From NCBI GenBank assembly GCA_913057235.1, contig CAJXNI010000026.1:1-40861 (forward strand): DNA of 40,861 bases, read 5' to 3'. This DNA is from an uncultured Bacteroidota bacterium (lineage in GTDB: Bacteria > Bacteroidota > Bacteroidia > Flavobacteriales > Schleiferiaceae). Shown one piece after another: positions 6,163 through 40,801 of the stretch. Positions within the stretch are counted from its first letter, which is position 1. Each line of letters opens with the position of its first letter. Under the pieces are notes generated by a model. The model was given only the letters and a program-made list of their open reading frames with translations. It had not been told where the DNA came from and did not search any database. A program made the translations under genes and the position numbers.

Positions 6163-7425
6163 ATGAAATTAAATTATCAAATTATCATTGTAGGCGGTGG
6201 TACCGGAGGAATTATGACGGCCGCTCAATTATTAAAAACGAATTCAAAATTAGAGATTGCTATTATTGAACCCTCTGAAACGCATTATTACCAGCCAGCC
6301 TGGACTTTGGTAGGGGCGGGAGCTTTTGATTATAAGAAAACCGCTAAACCCATGGCGGAGGTGATGCCAAAGGGTGTTACCTGGATTAAAGATAAAGTTA
6401 CCAAGTTGCAGCCTGAGGCCAATCGTTTGGAAACGGCCTCCACAGGAATTCTACAATATGATTATTTGGTATTAGCCCCAGGTCTGGTAATGAAACCCGA
6501 TTTAATTGAAGGCCTGCCTGAGGCTCTGGAAAGAGGCGTGGCGGTAAGCAATTACATAGACCCTGAGAAAACCTGGGAAAAGCTGCGGGATTTTAATGGT
6601 GGGAACGCATTATTTACCCAGCCTACTACCTCCATTAAATGCGGAGGGGCTCCCCAAAAAATTGCTTATTTGGCCGCTGACTATATTCAAAAACAAGGCT
6701 TGGAAGCTAAGTCTAATGTGGTTTTTGCCACCCCAGGCTCCGTTATTTTTGGGGTTAAAGAAATTCGAACTACCCTTATGCAGGTTATAGAAAAATACGG
6801 AATGCACTTCAGGCCGTTTTACGCGCCCGTCAAGATAGATTCTGATCGACAGGAAGTTCTTTTTAAAAGTACTCACCCAGAGGAAAATCAATGTGTGATT
6901 AATGAAGACAGCCGGTTGGGTGAAGAACAACACGGAGATTTCTCCATAACGATCCCCTTCAAGTTTCTTCACATTGCACCGCCACAGGCAGCACCAGATT
7001 TTATTAGAGATTCAGTATTGGCGAATGGCAATGGTTGGCTAGAAGTAGATCACCATACCCTACAGCATAAAAACCACGCAAATATTTTTGGTTTGGGAGA
7101 TGTGGCAGCTTTGCCAACCGCAAAAACCGGAGCCGCCATTCGCAAGCAAGTGCCCGTTTTAGTCGAAAACTTACTAAGCGTATTACAAGACAGGGCGGTT
7201 ACCAATAACTCTTATCAGGGATACAGCTCTTGCCCCTTGGTTACAGCTTATGATAAGATGGTACTTGCTGAGTTTGATTACGAAGGTAACTTTACGCCAG
7301 ACCCTAAATTAAAAAGGCTTTTAATTAAAGACAGTTCTAAAGAGCACCGCAGATTATACCTTCTTAAGAAATATGGCTTGCCCTATTTGTATTGGAACAA
7401 AATGCTGAAAGGCGCCACCGTTTAG
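6163..7425 (+). CDS. sqr: Sulfide:quinone oxidoreductase (type II-like)
   Basis: This 420-residue flavoprotein of the pyridine nucleotide-disulfide oxidoreductase fold oxidises sulfide to persulfide/polysulfide and passes electrons to the quinone pool at the membrane. The N-terminus shows the FAD motif VGGGTGG (10-16), and a second FAD contact is GLGDVAALP near 310-318. Two cysteines sit where SQR redox cysteines are expected: Cys160 (SIKCGGAPQK) and Cys357 (YSSCPLV). The C-terminal segment YLYWNKMLKG is typical of type II SQRs of mitochondria and many bacteria and should be the membrane-contact region. It heads a plus-strand group with a TauE exporter and a persulfide dioxygenase, which fits the role. 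Confidence 0.93.
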   Translation: MKLNYQIIIVGGGTGGIMTAAQLLKTNSKLEIAIIEPSETHYYQPAWTLVGAGAFDYKKTAKPMAEVMPKGVTWIKDKVTKLQPEANRLETASTGILQYDYLVLAPGLVMKPDLIEGLPEALERGVAVSNYIDPEKTWEKLRDFNGGNALFTQPTTSIKCGGAPQKIAYLAADYIQKQGLEAKSNVVFATPGSVIFGVKEIRTTLMQVIEKYGMHFRPFYAPVKIDSDRQEVLFKSTHPEENQCVINEDSRLGEEQHGDFSITIPFKFLHIAPPQAAPDFIRDSVLANGNGWLEVDHHTLQHKNHANIFGLGDVAALPTAKTGAAIRKQVPVLVENLLSVLQDRAVTNNSYQGYSSCPLVTAYDKMVLAEFDYEGNFTPDPKLKRLLIKDSSKEHRRLYLLKKYGLPYLYWNKMLKGATV

Positions 7426-34070: not shown

Positions 34071-34128
34071 AGAGGCATTGCCGAGACCCTGTTTAGTCCC
34101 CTTTTTTCTCTGGCAATGCCTCTTTTTT
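34071..34128 (+). terminator. Long stem-loop terminator downstream of the FAD oxidoreductase gene
   Basis: AGAGGCATTGCC (34071-34082) pairs perfectly with GGCAATGCCTCT (34112-34123); the stem extends by GAGA/TCTC across one bulge and is followed by TTTTT. The T-run is on the plus strand only. The 33900-34070 stretch between the stop and this hairpin shows no gene. Confidence 0.85.
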
Positions 34129-36928
34129 AATAATAGCCTCTTCGTAAACGGTTTATGATGTTGCTCAATTTCAGGTCTAAGACAAACCGCACATTGCTGA
34201 GGTAGTTAGCTTCTATGACGAACTGCCTATTGTGGTTTTGTAAAGGGAGGTAGATTTCCACAAAGTCGGTAAGAAATGCCAGGCGTATCCCATAGTCCCA
34301 GTAGGTAGCACCATCGGCCCAAGCCACATCGCCAAAAAGGCCTACGAAAGAGTAGAGAGGTACCGAGAGGTTCTGGCTTAACAGGTAGTTATTGGCAAAA
34401 ACACCGGTGCTGCTTTTAAAGCCTCCATCGGTGGTGAAAAATTGCCGGCTCCAGAGCCCGCGGGTATCACTGCGCCCAATAAAATAATAGTCAAAAAGAT
34501 AATCTTGCGTGCCGCTAAGGCCAAAGCTGTAAAAATTGTTACTAAAGCCTTGCTCTGCAAAGCGGTTGTGGAAAAACGCTCCGGCAAAGAACCGGGCAAT
34601 TAGCCATTTTTTGTTGGGCAGCATAAAGCGCTGGTCTAGTTGGGTGTAAACCTTGCTGAATTTTGACGAGTACTCCAGATTGAAGTCAAAAATGGTAGGC
34701 TTAAAAATGTTGGTGTTTTCCAAATGGTAGCCTGCGGTTAAAATGGTGTAACTGGCTAAGTTGCCGCGTACCTGGGCTGCCTCAATGTCACTGGGTAGCT
34801 CACGGTCTACCCGCACTGCGCGCAAGCGTAAGGTTTGAATTAAAGGGCTAGTAGGTTGCGGTTTGCGGATTCGGAAATTTAGGCTGGGCGAAAGCCGCAG
34901 AAAACTGAGATCTTGGTTGTAGTGGAAATACCTACCGTATACTCCGGCTGTGATTTGCCTGAAAAAGTGGCTTTTAGGCAGGGTGAAATTCCATCGGGCG
35001 GAAGCCGAACCGGTAAGCTGTTGGGTGCCGGTACTGATGTTGGGGTTTAGGTGGTACTCAAAAGGTTTTTGCACCAAAATAGAGCTGTTAGATAAATTCA
35101 CGCCCAGCAGCAATTGGTCGTAGGCATTGTAAGCTACCGATGGGAAATAAAAAACCTGCGTGCTTTGCGGTTCTTCAAAGCTGTTGTAAAAAGCAAAATT
35201 CAAGGGCTCAGCACGTTTAAGCAACCAACGCTTAGGATAGTAGCGGTTGTTTTTTTGACGATACTCCGTGTTTTGGAGGTGGTCATTCAGCACCACTTTG
35301 TCAAAATCCTCGTTGTACAATTGCACACTGCGCTGCCCTGAATGACCCTGAAACCACTCAGTAATTATGGCTTTACCATCTTTATAGCCGGTTAAGGAAT
35401 AGGGGAGATTTAAACGCCCTTCATTTCTAACGGTGGCCGTGGTTACGGTGGGGCAATGGTCTGTTTTGGCCAGCTGGTAGTCAAAAATTTCAGCCGAGTG
35501 CAAGCCCTCCTCAAAAAACCAATCTAAAGGTTTTATGCTGTAATAGACTAGCGCTTGTTGCAGGTCTTGAGGTGCAACGGCTCTCCCTAGGTTTTGGGCC
35601 CAGTACCGCGCCATACCCCGCCTAAAATTTTGAGTGCCCATATAGGCCCGCAAGTGATTGAGCAGTAAAAAGGTTTTGCCTTGCACCATTCCCTCGTAAT
35701 TAAGTCGAGAGAGGGAGTCAACCGGGTTGGCAATACTTTGATCTAAGCCCTGGCGCGCCAAAAAGAGGTACAAAAACTGATTTTGGTAGCCGTAATCAAA
35801 TGAGTCAAAATCAAATAAAGTAGCCCACCAGGCTTCGCTAAACGGCACCCACCGCTCTTGCGGAAAGTAATCTTTTATAAACTGATACTTATAGAAGTAG
35901 GGGAGGCCGCGGGCCAACCAGGGCTCTGCAAAGCCATTGGGGTGCACCTGATAGCGCAAAGCAGCCTGTGCCCGGGCATGGGCCAATTCCTGCGCCATTT
36001 TAAATTCAGAATCAGGCAGCTCTAGCGAAAGCAATTCAGCACTTTGGTATTCTCCTGTTTTATTAGCTATGTACACCCACTTTTTGGCTTGCAGCAGACT
36101 ATCATTTAGCTCGGTTTTAAAAAACCGGCTGATGGTTTTTGCGTGTGGTGCCAACTTCATTTCCAGCATGAGACTGGGTTCTTGACTGTACACTTTTACA
36201 CCCTGGGCCAAATTTAATTTTAACCATTGCGAAGCCCAGAAAACCTGGAGATTACGGCTGGTGCCGGCAAATTGATAGACCCAAAAATAGGGGGTAAGTT
36301 TTTGCGGCTTTTTTTGCAGTTTGAGGTTGGTGACGGGCTCCAGCACTGACTCCAGCCCAAGCTTTAGGTGAAAGCTATCCAGGGGCAAACTGGCATCGTT
36401 GTAATAGGTGTAAGGGTAGGTCTGCCAACCGCTGCTGTCTTTTTGGGCCACCCTGGGCAGCCAGTCTATAAGTGCTCCGTTTTGCGTATTGGCCCCTGTG
36501 GCAGCCAGTCCCTTGCGGGGAAGGAATAATTGGTAGTGCAATACCAGCGTTATGGAATCTTTATCGGCAGCAGGAAGCGTTACAAAATGCAACTCTTTGG
36601 GTTGCCTTAACTGTGTTGGCTGACCATTAAGCCGGGCACTGTCTAACTGGAGACGGCCCGTTTCTTCTGCGGAAGCGTAGTAGGCATCTACCTTTTGAAA
36701 TTCTGCTAGCTGTTGATTGTAAAACGAGTTTTTAAGGGCCAGGCTTTGAGCCGGAAAATGCAACAAAAGACTGTCTTTGTACAAATCAGCTGGAAAGCTG
36801 ATACGCGTAGAACCGCTTAACTTTTGAGAGGAGCGGTCATAGGTAAGGTCATGCTGAATAAGGTGTTTTTGCCCCAGCAATCCAAGCGGCAACAGGGCTA
36901 GAAAATAAAAAATGCGGGCCTTAGTCAT
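34127..36928 (-). CDS. M1 peptidase-like protein with degenerate zinc site fused to a C-terminal beta-barrel
   Basis: The start used is the ATG at 36928 (933 residues, MTKARIFYFLALLPLGLLGQK, a signal peptide); a TTG at 36937 would overlap the -7 box. The N-terminal part (about 25-570) follows the M1 aminopeptidase plan, but the zinc motif HELAH is QELAH (near residue 313-317) and the downstream WLxEG is WLARGL, so zinc binding and catalysis are probably lost. The last 350 residues look like an outer-membrane barrel with alternating strands (SASARWNFTLP, AGVYGRYFHYNQDL, NFYSFGLSGTQDY, VRFVLDLKLSNIINRL). The protein is presumably surface-exposed or periplasmic and outer-membrane-anchored. Its function is unknown; a binding or scaffold role is possible. 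Confidence 0.82.
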   Translation of the reverse strand: MTKARIFYFLALLPLGLLGQKHLIQHDLTYDRSSQKLSGSTRISFPADLYKDSLLLHFPAQSLALKNSFYNQQLAEFQKVDAYYASAEETGRLQLDSARLNGQPTQLRQPKELHFVTLPAADKDSITLVLHYQLFLPRKGLAATGANTQNGALIDWLPRVAQKDSSGWQTYPYTYYNDASLPLDSFHLKLGLESVLEPVTNLKLQKKPQKLTPYFWVYQFAGTSRNLQVFWASQWLKLNLAQGVKVYSQEPSLMLEMKLAPHAKTISRFFKTELNDSLLQAKKWVYIANKTGEYQSAELLSLELPDSEFKMAQELAHARAQAALRYQVHPNGFAEPWLARGLPYFYKYQFIKDYFPQERWVPFSEAWWATLFDFDSFDYGYQNQFLYLFLARQGLDQSIANPVDSLSRLNYEGMVQGKTFLLLNHLRAYMGTQNFRRGMARYWAQNLGRAVAPQDLQQALVYYSIKPLDWFFEEGLHSAEIFDYQLAKTDHCPTVTTATVRNEGRLNLPYSLTGYKDGKAIITEWFQGHSGQRSVQLYNEDFDKVVLNDHLQNTEYRQKNNRYYPKRWLLKRAEPLNFAFYNSFEEPQSTQVFYFPSVAYNAYDQLLLGVNLSNSSILVQKPFEYHLNPNISTGTQQLTGSASARWNFTLPKSHFFRQITAGVYGRYFHYNQDLSFLRLSPSLNFRIRKPQPTSPLIQTLRLRAVRVDRELPSDIEAAQVRGNLASYTILTAGYHLENTNIFKPTIFDFNLEYSSKFSKVYTQLDQRFMLPNKKWLIARFFAGAFFHNRFAEQGFSNNFYSFGLSGTQDYLFDYYFIGRSDTRGLWSRQFFTTDGGFKSSTGVFANNYLLSQNLSVPLYSFVGLFGDVAWADGATYWDYGIRLAFLTDFVEIYLPLQNHNRQFVIEANYLSNVRFVLDLKLSNIINRLRRGYY

Positions 36929-36934
36929 GGCCCG

Positions 36935-36942
36935 CAAAGATA
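36935..36942 (-). promoter_or_regulatory. -7 promoter element abutting the M1-like gene start
   Basis: On the minus strand TATCTTTG is an exact TAnnTTTG, ending only six bases before the ATG at 36928. Transcription would then begin almost at the start codon, giving a nearly leaderless mRNA. No TTG sits 19 bases upstream. Confidence 0.5.
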
Positions 36943-37011: not shown

Positions 37012-37941
37012 TTAAATAATGATGAGCTCTTCCTGGGCAACGGCATTGGTACCGCCCAAGCCCCAAAAGTGGGGCATGGACGGCTCATCTTCAGTGGGTT
37101 CTAAACAGGCTTGCAAAGGATGACCAGCGTTAAAACCTGACCCGGAATCTATGGCGGTAGAGTCTGTAGGGCTTTCGGCTGCCTCTTCGTCTTCCCAATT
37201 GGGAGACTCGGGGCAATTAACACACACTAGGCCCGCAGGGGTCATGATCCAGGAGTGCCTTACCATATCCCAACTCCAGTAATTGTTGCGGTTATTTACT
37301 TCTTGCAATATTTCTTCCAGCCCGGGCTCTAAGGTAACGGTGTCATTTACCGCCAGATACAGTGTAAGGTATACGCGTTGCCCGTTAATTTTCTCGCCAT
37401 CTGGCAAAACATAGTAGAGGGGTAATTCTACCGAGCCTGAGTCTATTTCGGCTTGGTATTCCAGTTCACGCGCATGCCGGTTGGCGCTCTGCCGGGTTAG
37501 GCCCTGAGATTCCACCCGCCTTTCCAGGTAACTGTAATCTGTGTTTCCCATGCGAATAGTGAACTGCACGGCCTTAATGGCATGTGTTTTTCCGTATTTA
37601 CGCCAGGGAGGCTGAAAATCAAAGTCTGAAAAATCTTGGTACTCATACCATTCTTGTACGTGCGCAGCTTGCAGTACGCTGGGTACCAGCGCACCCCTGC
37701 TTAATCGATACGGGGCCTGGCGTTGGTAAGGTACTGTTCCTCCGTTTAGCACGCAGGCACTGCGTTGGGCACTCATGCCCATCCAGGTTCCCTTAGCTTC
37801 TAAATCTTGCGGAAAATAAAGTGTGTGGCCCTCCAACTCATGTCTTATGATGTTTTGGCTGCTGGGGCGCTGTGGGTTTTCATCGCGACTGTGCGTGAGG
37901 ATAAACCCGCTGTTGGTAGGCAAGTAGGTAAGATTGCACAC
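37012..37941 (-). CDS. NRDE/TANGO2-like family protein
   Basis: The 309-residue protein begins MCNLTYLPTNSGFILTHSRDENPQRPS, the NRDE family N-terminus (Cys2 plus an SRDE motif in place of NRDE), and continues TWMGMSAQRSACVLNGG, also conserved. TANGO2 homologues are linked to haem handling and membrane lipid homeostasis in eukaryotes; the bacterial role is unclear. The C-terminal 60 residues are acidic and may be a lineage addition. It follows the NDH-2 gene by five bases, so the two probably form an operon. Confidence 0.85.
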   Translation of the reverse strand: MCNLTYLPTNSGFILTHSRDENPQRPSSQNIIRHELEGHTLYFPQDLEAKGTWMGMSAQRSACVLNGGTVPYQRQAPYRLSRGALVPSVLQAAHVQEWYEYQDFSDFDFQPPWRKYGKTHAIKAVQFTIRMGNTDYSYLERRVESQGLTRQSANRHARELEYQAEIDSGSVELPLYYVLPDGEKINGQRVYLTLYLAVNDTVTLEPGLEEILQEVNNRNNYWSWDMVRHSWIMTPAGLVCVNCPESPNWEDEEAAESPTDSTAIDSGSGFNAGHPLQACLEPTEDEPSMPHFWGLGGTNAVAQEELIII

Positions 37942-37946
37942 CTTGG

Positions 37947-39287
37947 CTAGTCTTGATTTAAGGCTTCTTTATGACTTTCTAGCGCTAGCTCTTTTTCAGC
38001 AAGGCTATGGCGGTTTACCGGTCTGATGATCAAGCGTATTTTACGGTCATAGCTAAAGTAATTGATAAACCAATTGAGCAACACCACCAAACGGTTTCTG
38101 AAGCCTACTAGGCTAATCAGGTGCACCATCATCCAAACATACCAGCCGGCAAATCCTTTAAGCATAAACTTATTGTAAAGCTCAGCCACGGCTTTGTTGC
38201 GGCCTACGGTTGCCATGCTGCCCATATCATTGTAGGTAAAAGCTTTCCATTCTTTTTTCTTGGCCTCACGGGCGAGGTTTGCAGCTAAGTTTTCACCCTG
38301 CTGAATGGCCACCTGCGCCAACATGGGGTGACCTTTAGGATTTTCATCGCTTAGCATGGACGCCACATCACCAATGGCAAAAACATTCTTATGCTGTCCT
38401 ATCTGGTTGAGTTTATTGACCAGATAGCGTCCCTTGGCAAAATCTTCGCCTTGAGCGAAACCATCAATTAAGGCCCCGCTTACCCCGGCCGCCCAAATAA
38501 GAGTTGAAGCCGGCAGTTTTTTCTTTTGGTTGGTTTTTACCATTTCACCATCGTAATCTTGTACCGCGGTGTTTAGCCAAACCTGCACACCTAAAGATTC
38601 CAAATATTCCAGCGCGTTTTTACTGGAAAAATCGCTCATAGGCGGAAGTACCTTGTCGGCCATTTCAATCAGATGAATAGACATTCTCCTGAAGTCTAGG
38701 TCTGGGTAATCATTGGGGAGCACGTGGGTTTTAAGCTCGGCCAGAGCACCCGCCAGCTCCGTACCGGTGGGCCCGGCACCTACAATTACAAAATTCATGA
38801 GGCGTTCACGCTCCTTCAAATTTTCAGTGAGAGAGGCGGCTTCAAAGTTTTGGAGGATGAGGCTCCGCAGGTTTAAGGCCTCGGGAACGCTTTTCATAGG
38901 AATGGCTAATTTTTCCACCCGCTCCATGCCAAAATAATTGGTAGCACTGCCGGTAGCTATTACCAGATAATCATAACTCAGCGGACCAATATTGGTGTTG
39001 ATAATCTGGCTTTCTGTATCCACGCTGTGCGCTTCAGCCATCCTGAAGAAGAATTTTTTTTGCTTTTTAAAAATATTACGGATAGGATAGGCAATGGAAT
39101 CTGGCTCCAGCCCTGCAGTAGCTACTTGGTATAATAGCGGTTGAAAGGTGTGGTAGTTGTGCTTGTCTATCATAACCACTTGATAGGGCTGTTTTTTGAG
39201 GTTTTTAGCCAAGTTTAAACCGGCAAAACCACAGCCAATAATGACAATGCGCGGTTGATTGGTTTCAGGAATATTTAAGTTGTTCAT
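37947..39287 (-). CDS. Type II NADH:quinone oxidoreductase (NDH-2)
   Basis: The 446-residue flavoprotein transfers electrons from NADH to quinone without pumping ions. It has two dinucleotide motifs: VIIGCGFAGLNLAKNL (15-30) for FAD and IVGAGPTGTELAGALAEL (about 168-186) for NAD(H). It also has YHTFQPLLYQVATAGLEPDSIAYPIR (45-70), typical of NDH-2, GDVASM for FAD, and AQVAIQQG, a quinone-site-like motif. The C-terminal segment GWYVWMMVHLISLVGFRNRLVVLLNWFINYF is the expected amphipathic membrane anchor. Its partner gene downstream is NRDE/TANGO2-like. Confidence 0.93.
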   Translation of the reverse strand: MNNLNIPETNQPRIVIIGCGFAGLNLAKNLKKQPYQVVMIDKHNYHTFQPLLYQVATAGLEPDSIAYPIRNIFKKQKKFFFRMAEAHSVDTESQIINTNIGPLSYDYLVIATGSATNYFGMERVEKLAIPMKSVPEALNLRSLILQNFEAASLTENLKERERLMNFVIVGAGPTGTELAGALAELKTHVLPNDYPDLDFRRMSIHLIEMADKVLPPMSDFSSKNALEYLESLGVQVWLNTAVQDYDGEMVKTNQKKKLPASTLIWAAGVSGALIDGFAQGEDFAKGRYLVNKLNQIGQHKNVFAIGDVASMLSDENPKGHPMLAQVAIQQGENLAANLAREAKKKEWKAFTYNDMGSMATVGRNKAVAELYNKFMLKGFAGWYVWMMVHLISLVGFRNRLVVLLNWFINYFSYDRKIRLIIRPVNRHSLAEKELALESHKEALNQD

Positions 39288-39338
39288 AGTGTTGAAACTA
39301 GCAATGCGAACCGTCTTTTAAGGGTTTTGTTTGGCGAA

Positions 39339-39476
39339 GGAAGATGGAAGCGGGAAGCAGGAAGACCGAAAACCGAGGACGGGAAATGGAGCTACATGTT
39401 TGATGTCCGAAGTCTGAAGTCCGAAATCGATGTCTGAAATCTAACATCTAACATCCAACATCCAACATCTAACATC
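39339..39476. repeat. Heptamer-periodic tandem repeat array between NDH-2 and the serine hydrolase
   Basis: Reading the plus strand, four 7-mers GGAAGNN (39339-39366) are followed by CGAAAAC, CGAGGAC and GGGAAAT in the same phase (to 39387). After 14 degenerate bases, 11 more units run from 39401 to 39476. On the minus strand these 11 fit GAYNTYR: GATGTTA, GATGTTG, GATGTTG, GATGTTA, GATGTTA, GATTTCA, the six-base GACATC, GATTTCG, GACTTCA, GACTTCG, GACATCA. Phase is kept across the spacer. A seven-base period cannot keep a reading frame, and the array lies in a non-coding gap (39288-39487). Confidence 0.8.
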
Positions 39477-39487
39477 TCTCTACCGAC

Positions 39488-40801
39488 TTAACGCTTAAAC
39501 ATAATTTTACGGCCCATTTGCGTAAAAGTGAGTTGGTCTTTTTCGGGGCTAAACTGCATCAGTATATCAGCTGGGGTAAATTCAAAGCGGTTAGGCGCAG
39601 TGGGTTTGAGTACAAAAGCGGCTTGACCAGTGGCCTGGGCTTTCAAAACATCATTTTCTACAAATACCTTAATATCCAGGGGAAAATTGCTGCTGCTGTA
39701 AGTTCCGGTTACTGCGTTCAGTTCTTGAGCAGAGGCGGCATAGCTGGTAAAATTGGGGATCTTAAAATCTTTGCCAAAGTAAGCCGAAAGCATGGCAATG
39801 GCTATTTCATTGGGATCCATTTGCAAACCATTAAAACTGTAGGCTATGCTAAGACCTTCCTCCTTAAAATGACCCGCCATAGAATTAAAACCATCAATGC
39901 CTCCGGTATGGCCGTACGCCACCCGCCCTTCAAAAGGGAAACTTAAAATACCCAGGCCATAGCTATCGCCCATTTCGGGCAGCATGGCATCGGCTGTAGC
40001 CTGATCTAAAATCTTACCGCCACGGAGCTGGTAAAAAAACCGACACAAGTCGCTAGGCGTTGAAATGAGATTGCCGCCCCCCAGCGGTATGCTCATGTGA
40101 GTTTCAGAAGCCGGTTCATAGCCGTTGCCCCACTGATAGCTCAGCGCCTGATTTTGCTTGTGGTTTATGGCTTTCCCTACCTGAGTGTGCTCCAACTGAG
40201 CGGGTTCTATTACTTTTTTACGCAAAAGCTCAGCAAAAGATGCCTGGCCCGCTTTTTCAGCAATAAGACTCAGCAACACGTAGTTGCTATTGGAGTAACT
40301 GAACTGACTGCCAGGTTCAAAGTCACTGCCGCCTTTTTGAATAATTTCAAGCAGTTTTTCAGCACTTTTAGGCTCACTGAGGTACTGGGTATAGGACTCA
40401 TCATCGGTGAAGTTGTGAATGCCGCTAGTGTGGTTAAGCAGCATTTTTAGGGTTATCTTTTCGGCATTGATAATTTCAGGGTAATACACGCTCAGTTTTT
40501 GGTTACGCTTGAGCAGCCCCTCCTTTTCCAGCTTTAAAATAAGCACGGCTGTAAAGGTTTTAGAAACGGAGCCTATGCGATATTGTGTTTGGGCATTAGG
40601 TCGCACACTATCGGCCAGGTGGGCAAAACCCAATTGCCTTTGGTAGATTATTTCACCGTTTTTGGCCAGGGCTACGCTACCCATGGCTTGTTCTTCTTGT
40701 TCCAGCAAATCGAAATACTGGTTTAGCTTTTCACGGTTAAATTCCTGGGCGGTAAGGCTAAGGCTTAAAGCCGATAGGAGAAAGATTGCTGCTGTTTTCA
40801 T
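39488..40801 (-). CDS. Secreted serine hydrolase of the beta-lactamase/PBP-like (S12) family
   Basis: The 437-residue protein has a signal peptide (about 1-18, ending SLTAQ) and a serine beta-lactamase-like domain with SxxK in SVSK (Ser78, Lys81), the YSN motif (169-171) and HTGG (297-300), the full class C/S12 set. A C-terminal domain of about 110 residues (LNAVTGTYSSSNFPLDIKV) resembles the lipocalin-like DUF3471-type domain often found with it. It is probably an esterase, D-aminopeptidase or peptidoglycan-active enzyme rather than a true beta-lactamase. A near-match -7 box (TACCTTAG) lies 17 bases upstream. Confidence 0.92.
   Translation of the reverse strand: MKTAAIFLLSALSLSLTAQEFNREKLNQYFDLLEQEEQAMGSVALAKNGEIIYQRQLGFAHLADSVRPNAQTQYRIGSVSKTFTAVLILKLEKEGLLKRNQKLSVYYPEIINAEKITLKMLLNHTSGIHNFTDDESYTQYLSEPKSAEKLLEIIQKGGSDFEPGSQFSYSNSNYVLLSLIAEKAGQASFAELLRKKVIEPAQLEHTQVGKAINHKQNQALSYQWGNGYEPASETHMSIPLGGGNLISTPSDLCRFFYQLRGGKILDQATADAMLPEMGDSYGLGILSFPFEGRVAYGHTGGIDGFNSMAGHFKEEGLSIAYSFNGLQMDPNEIAIAMLSAYFGKDFKIPNFTSYAASAQELNAVTGTYSSSNFPLDIKVFVENDVLKAQATGQAAFVLKPTAPNRFEFTPADILMQFSPEKDQLTFTQMGRKIMFKR

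Follow-up and report, generated by a model that had tools for sequence, protein, structure and literature searches.

Within the window, i.e. the whole stretch of 40,861 nucleotides analysed here, two minus-strand genes in tandem, a serine hydrolase gene and a gene for a type II NADH dehydrogenase-like protein, are separated by a gap that holds a degenerate array of seven-base units (Table 1). The source genome comprises 2.83 Mb on 49 contigs. For a neighbouring protein, the closest named relatives come from metagenome assemblies labelled Flavobacteriales, Owenweeksia and Cryomorphaceae, which places the host in the Bacteroidota. Along the coding (minus) strand, the array of 142 nt starts about 10 nt after the stop codon of the hydrolase gene (11 by the script's count) and ends about 48 nt before the start codon of the dehydrogenase gene.

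Table 1 Coordinates of the heptamer array, its parts and the flanking genes
Feature	Position	Strand	Basis
Upstream gene: serine hydrolase, Beta-lactamase family PF00144	39488..40801	-	ORF and Pfam
Downstream gene: type II NADH dehydrogenase-like protein (Pyr_redox_2, NDH2_C)	37947..39287	-	ORF and Pfam
Gap of 200 nt between the two genes, changing from G-rich to C-rich along the coding strand	39288..39487	.	
Whole period-7 array	39336..39477	.	lag-7 score against shuffles
Four GGAAGNN units, distal C-rich end as read on the coding (minus) strand	39339..39366	+	sequence, motif positions
Three degenerate units in the phase of the GGAAGNN units	39367..39387	+	sequence split in sevens
Phase-keeping 14-nt spacer	39388..39401	.	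sequence split in sevens
Eleven coding-strand GAYNTY(R) units, with a one-base slip at 39434/39428	39401..39476	-	motif positions

At lag 7, the array segment scores 49.5, compared with a maximum of 13.5 in 200 dinucleotide shuffles of the whole window and of 10.6 in 1000 shuffles of the array alone. Matches at this lag cover 66 of 100 positions in the best stretch of 100 nt, while all other periods between 2 and 30 reach at most 49 of 100 with the exception of the harmonic 14 (56). The GGAAGNN units begin at 39339, 39346, 39353 and 39360, and the 11 minus-strand GAYNTY(R) units at 39476, 39469, 39462, 39455, 39448, 39441, 39434, 39428, 39421, 39414 and 39407. The first-pass annotation had described two heptamer families that all keep a single seven-base phase; the periodicity and the named units are indeed present, but the description of the phase is inexact because one base is slipped between the units at 39434 and 39428. 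Tandem Repeats Finder splits the array into three parts (39338-39364, 39401-39442 and 39439-39477). On the coding strand, GC skew amounts to +0.43 in the first half of the array and -0.50 in the second, and when the gap is divided into 20-nt bins counted from the stop codon, bins one, two and eight have values of +0.78, +1.0 and -0.8, respectively.

Folding of the window array gives z-scores of -0.8 for the coding strand and +1.1 for the opposite strand, and the two complementary folding arms that mark a subset of similar arrays are lacking. Likewise, neither a hairpin followed by a T-run in 39200-39560, nor a terminator by script scan, nor a T-run after the array was found. A known structured RNA was rejected as the identity of the array, a covariance-model search of 38900-39900 against Rfam having returned 0 matches up to an E-value of 1.

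The same gene pair occurs in two related genomes, where hydrolase relatives 40 to 42% identical to the window hydrolase lie beside the dehydrogenase and the gaps measure 60 nt (L091) and 57 nt (L092), both without an array. As the window gap minus its array leaves 58 nt, the extra gap length is due to the array. No terminator was detected by script scan in the two shorter gaps; therefore, the window array may be a gain at a place where no terminator existed, and nothing need have been replaced at this site.

Two further reading frames of the window deserve mention. In the minus-strand ORF 37012-37941, the start of a TANGO2-family protein (residues 12-115) is joined to a ToastRack domain of the PspC C-terminal type (residues 121-245). 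Six related loci match the two parts separately, about 2.5 to 3.5 kb apart, so that the ORF has the appearance of two genes fused by a deletion, or else of an error in the assembly. For the minus-strand ORF 34127-36937 (936 aa), Pfam gave no hit at E 1e-5, and the loci around the dehydrogenase contain no relative.

Recurrence of seven-base arrays in the source genome and in Bacteroidota

Degenerate patterns derived from the window units located similar arrays on nine contigs of the source genome, about a dozen further sites in all, whereas a match on one more contig (C11) looks like chance. Several of these arrays have related units. When the window and 20 source-genome stretches were scanned without reference to any unit, 15 period-7 segments emerged, all of them in the window or in pattern-matched stretches, while the ten 20-kb stretches chosen without a pattern match contained zero. 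On contig C42, which measures 12 kb (locus L070), a GC-rich palindromic element with the core CCCGGGTCTCTGC was observed in four copies on one strand near heptamer runs (positions 6243, 6427, 8320 and 8615), possibly a dispersed repeat that carries arrays along. In addition, a short sequence with heptamers is shared between the start of contig C7 (L068, 1-140) and the end of contig C42 (L070, 12009 onward); since the same sequence lies at both contig ends, this suggests that array-bearing repeats may break the assembly.

In the wider family, 27 of 88 genomes were matched by pattern and several genera contain genomes with multiple matches; because the reversed control also matches many genomes, single family matches with three mismatches lie near chance, and the multi-match genomes (G011, G023, G024 and G026) are the informative ones. 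In the corresponding scan of the phylum (88 of 392 genomes), the reversed-pattern control is invalid because the reversed pattern is nearly identical to the pattern itself, and the figure is therefore not usable as a clean frequency. A blind sample offers a unit-free view of the phylum: of 80 places requested, 14 were non-existent, and the other 66, one per Bacteroidota genome and 1.30 Mb in total, contained nine intergenic period-7 arrays. Periods 4, 5, 6, 8, 10, 12 and 13 gave zero arrays and periods 9, 11, 15 and 18 one each, while the eight arrays at period 14 and the five at period 21, both multiples of seven, may overlap those at period 7. Period 7 is the outstanding short intergenic period in this sample, and heptad arrays are general in Bacteroidota. 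A 50-kb stretch of E. coli contained no array, although it is too short to serve as a control. The search for similar arrays advised by the first-pass annotation thus succeeded both in the source genome and in the blind sample, and a one-off slippage scar, which had been considered there as well, is ruled out by this recurrence.

For the counts below, 90 arrays were collected, of which 17 were dropped for an overlap of more than 60% with predicted genes, and the 73 arrays kept fall into 65 gaps, as some arrays share a gap and some are without a flank. The set is divided into the groups own, named, blind and pattern-chosen. The 60 pattern-match stretches derive from 13 genomes, a good part of them being without an array above threshold, and arrays within one genome are not independent. 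Genes were called by a longest-ORF script rather than by a gene finder. Across the set, period, position and polarity recur while the unit sequence varies, the leading unit falling into 48 classes among the 73 arrays.

Position, polarity and terminators at gene ends

Of the 65 array gaps, 44 are co-directional, 17 convergent and only 4 divergent, whereas the 507 control gaps comprise 291, 70 and 146, respectively; divergent gaps are hence depleted among array gaps (4/65 vs 146/507, p 2e-5). Here, array gaps of any length between ORFs of at least 80 aa were used with pattern-chosen loci included, in contrast to control gaps of at least 120 nt between ORFs of at least 90 aa with pattern-chosen loci excluded. 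In the 44 tandem gaps, the array lies a median of 9.5 nt from the stop codon vs 49 nt from the next start (Wilcoxon p 0.035), being within 20 nt of the stop codon in 27 and within 20 nt of the start in 12.

Arrays within 25 nt of a stop codon run from G-rich to C-rich on the coding strand in 22 cases and in reverse in 5 (n=28, p 3e-4). Arrays farther from the stop (8 G-first vs 9, n=17) and control tandem gaps (134 vs 131, n=266) have no preference. Overall, G-first polarity is found in 30 vs 11 of 44 when counted per gap and in 30 vs 14 of 45 per array; it is strongest in hairpin arrays (10 vs 1) and weaker in the remaining ones (20 vs 13, p 0.04). The named and blind loci, whose choice did not depend on a pattern, contribute 14 near-stop gaps, three of them orthologous; 11 of the 14 are G-first, one is tied and two are not G-first. 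GC skew over the 20 nt directly behind the stop codon is +0.48 at the 28 near-stop ends and 0.00 at 423 control ends. The window array itself combines period 7, a distance of at most 25 nt from the stop, a non-divergent gap and a G-rich to C-rich coding strand, i.e. the traits of the stop-proximal class. All counts of position and polarity were made independently of the published location data on heptamers in Xanthomonas and Nostoc that are discussed below.

Canonical terminators were scanned at gene ends as a hairpin with a loop of at most 9 nt followed by a T-run, a procedure that misses hairpins visible by eye at two loci (L327 and L335). Among gene ends whose array begins no more than 25 nt from the stop codon, 1 of 46 had such a terminator, compared with 198 of 645 controls (p 2e-6), while ends with a farther array (8/32) are similar to controls. 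The scarcity holds over a range of cut-offs, with 1/31 at 5 nt, 1/38 at 10 nt, 1/52 at 50 nt and 3/60 at 100 nt. Since gaps of at least 80 nt were used for control ends and of at least 40 nt for array ends, expectations were derived with matched lengths: among the 46 abutting ends, 10.1 terminators would be expected if arrays were inserted beside an intact terminator and 2.5 if the slot were overwritten. The one observed rejects the insertion model (p 1.4e-4) and fits the overwriting model (p 0.27), so that abutting arrays occupy the terminator slot; in control ends, the terminator hairpin begins a median of 32 nt after the stop.

Split by sampling group, the terminator counts at array and control ends are 2/10 vs 19/57 (own), 0/9 vs 36/117 (named), 2/11 vs 125/401 (blind) and 5/45 vs 18/70 (pattern-chosen), and the contrast is significant inside none of them. 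Across the 38 loci that have both kinds of ends, the per-locus difference averages -0.22 (p 0.004), and for abutting arrays of the named and blind loci, with one of three orthologues kept, the contrast amounts to 1/17 vs 161/518 (p 0.03). Neither hairpin arrays alone (2/17, p 0.11) nor convergent gaps of all lengths (7/34 vs 104/284, p 0.09) give a significant contrast.

Some arrays are two-armed, consisting of heptamers, a short spacer and the reverse complement of those heptamers. Eight arrays at seven loci (L108, L120-L122, L126, L196 with two, and L210) have fold z-scores from about -4.5 to -9.4, and the array of L161 reaches -73 kcal/mol in 113 nt. Strong hairpins with z of at most -3 were obtained for 17 of 72 arrays, L291 being omitted as too long, with 1/11 in the own, 6/9 in the named, 4/12 in the blind and 6/40 in the pattern-chosen group. 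A hairpin is therefore ruled out as the general explanation, both for the window array and for most others. Furthermore, the coding strand folds more stably in 22 cases and the opposite strand in 21 (n=45); coding-strand folds are thus no more stable than those of the opposite strand, and selection at the RNA level by strand-specific stability is not supported.

Both arrays and terminators are found at an orthologous site in the Mucilaginibacter group, where orthologues of one gene were found in 89 of 120 genomes and the best 30 were compared. Five of these 30 genomes carry a right arm of 9, 7, 20, 10 and 5 units, the unit being CCTTTCA in two genomes and CCTTTCG in three, which is complementary to the heptamers beside the stop codon; within 160 nt, the scan detected no canonical terminator in any of the five. 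Three of them, with 9, 7 and 20 units, encode proteins 99.3 to 100% identical to the query. Five other genomes (93.9 to 96.7% identical) have the stop-side heptamers and then an ordinary terminator. Among the remaining 20, the scan found neither element in 17 and a terminator in L323 and L337, while in L333 a hairpin built from heptamers of another unit was likewise scored as a terminator; the hairpins of L327 and L335 were seen by eye. Copy number thus changes fast, the unit turns over, and array and terminator occupy one place in close relatives. Length variation, which the first-pass annotation had advised to look for, was accordingly seen between close relatives at this Mucilaginibacter site, the window site being represented by a single genome of its genus.

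Relation to known heptameric repeats and terminators

STRR repeats of heterocystous cyanobacteria are tandem heptanucleotides located between genes and belonging to fixed unit families. They share tandem intergenic heptamers with the window array, while units and phylum differ. The first-pass annotation had likened the array to them, which is apt for the period, but in position and polarity the closest known kind are the heptameric repeats of Xanthomonas and Nostoc (Rehm et al. 2015, PMC4692102). According to the accessible text of that study, (GGGANTN)n in Xanthomonas and GGGGA(C/T)T in Nostoc are degenerate G-rich intergenic repeats that lie between aligned genes, rarely between divergent ones, with the sense strand G-rich close after stop codons. 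In Xanthomonas, many convergent inverted repeat pairs occur and repeat length differs between related species. The repeats were proposed as G-quadruplex elements, a polymerase-footprint slippage idea for heptamers is quoted, and their role remains to be found in the words of the authors.

With these repeats, as described there, the Bacteroidota arrays have in common the period of seven, degeneracy, intergenic position, rarity in divergent gaps, post-stop G-richness and length differences, and the window array, too, has its G-rich part on the sense strand at most 50 bp from the stop codon. In contrast, the Bacteroidota arrays belong to another phylum, and their units vary from array to array and are mostly without GGG. 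A link to missing terminators was counted here, unlike in the accessible text of the Xanthomonas and Nostoc study.

For Bacteroidetes themselves, 7n3 is the only positive simple-repeat value in the accessible part of Table 2 of Mrazek and Huang (2014, PMC4060949), where heptamer repeats are over-represented in several bacterial groups including this one. Phylum and unit length are those of the window array, although perfect three-copy repeats were counted there, and the accessible parts of that paper do not deal with degenerate or two-armed arrays, with polarity or with terminators. TAACTGA direct repeats, as far as the accessible text of MacGregor (2015, PMC4679880) describes them, occur in Beggiatoaceae, Cyanobacteria and five Bacteroidetes, with a fixed unit and mostly just upstream of starts. 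They resemble the window array as intergenic tandem heptamers, some of them in Bacteroidetes, but their unit is absent from it by eye, and the array keeps its distance of about 48 nt from the start codon. Intrinsic (Rho-independent) terminators share the post-stop slot with the arrays, some of which also form long stems; the arrays differ in that no T-run was found and in that their arms consist of seven-base units, and the window copy lacks a significant hairpin. A recent study of transcription termination in cyanobacteria (PMC13289151) gave no result when searched for mentions of repeats. A literature search that covered few subscription journals turned up no account of such arrays in Bacteroidota, nor of how they relate to terminators.

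Growth of the arrays and their possible role

The evidence is best accommodated, at about even odds (roughly 0.5), if the window array is a slippage-grown heptamer array in a terminator slot. In the 3' untranslated slot behind the hydrolase gene, the usual place of an intrinsic terminator, a degenerate heptamer microsatellite would have been enlarged by slippage during replication. It would belong to a widespread Bacteroidota class with period 7, a location right after stop codons, a G-rich-to-C-rich coding strand and no fixed unit. Where the two halves are still complementary, they form long stem-loops, which would probably stand in for a canonical terminator by helping to end the transcript or by setting its 3' end. 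The halves of the window array would have drifted apart, and it is probably a weak or decayed version for this reason. For the class, the suggestion of a terminator substitute in the first-pass annotation accordingly gains correlative support from position, polarity and the rarity of terminators; the window array itself, having neither a significant fold nor a T-run, does not bear it out.

The main rival, which has a real chance of being right though we would not favour it, regards the arrays as neutral debris: heptamer arrays would arise anywhere by polymerase slippage, be purged from genes and promoters and survive without function after stop codons, with polarity resulting from strand-biased mutation in transcribed DNA. 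That the window array does not fold, that folding is equal on both strands, that copy number changes very fast among the Mucilaginibacter genomes with nearly identical proteins and that the unit is unconstrained all agree with it, the depletion of divergent gaps would be an outcome of purging from promoters, and the quoted polymerase-footprint idea offers a mode of origin. Neutral debris alone, however, does not predict the missing terminators, unless the genes concerned needed none, nor a polarity that is confined to arrays near the stop codon.

Going beyond slippage growth in the terminator slot, a bolder conjecture, to which we would give only a small chance, holds that in Bacteroidota intrinsic terminators are replaced time and again by self-renewing period-7 arrays of G-to-C polarity, which would need no T-run to end transcripts. 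Period and arm pairing would be maintained while the unit turns over quickly by slippage and arm-to-arm copying, yielding a sequence-free signal for gene ends whose design would be common to the Xanthomonas and Nostoc repeats. Stop-codon position, polarity and the near-absence of terminators at any rate pose a testable question, namely whether the arrays are where transcripts end. A positive answer would mean that a class of signals is overlooked when terminators are annotated in these genomes; otherwise, the arrays record slippage biased by transcription.

It is very improbable that the C-rich half serves as a Rho entry site, the array ending transcription with Rho. The coding strand of the window gap does turn C-rich and G-poor in its far half, and the maximal C-over-G window on the coding strand of near-stop arrays is 0.160 compared with 0.110 in controls (p 0.04); yet the excess on the opposite strand is at least as large (0.188), and the absence of a strand preference (p 0.63) speaks against this candidate. 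Equally slight are the prospects of a binding platform whose protein would count in steps of seven bases, or of a recombination or replication hotspot. Related units in several arrays of the source genome and arrays on one contig end (C7) and on the repeat-rich contig C42 are in keeping with it, but with so many leading unit classes there is no common site, and a period held in common while the sequence is not argues against one sequence-specific binding protein. The protein-binding platform envisaged in the first-pass annotation therefore loses ground for the class as a whole. Least credible of all is a G-quadruplex element as proposed for Xanthomonas and Nostoc, for although the GGAAGNN units supply four GG runs at seven-base spacing and position and polarity are those described for the published repeats, the window array departs from GGGANTN and GGGGAYT units in having only two GGG runs (both on the plus strand, none on the coding strand), and a quadruplex is ruled out as a common property because units vary between arrays and leading ones such as AAGACCG, AACATCC and AAAGGTG are mostly without GGG.

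As a separate observation at the Mucilaginibacter site, locus L319 (genome G596) contains 20 perfect CCTTTCG units while its protein is 99.3% identical to those of the genomes with nine and seven CCTTTCA units, which makes this site suited for measuring slippage rates.
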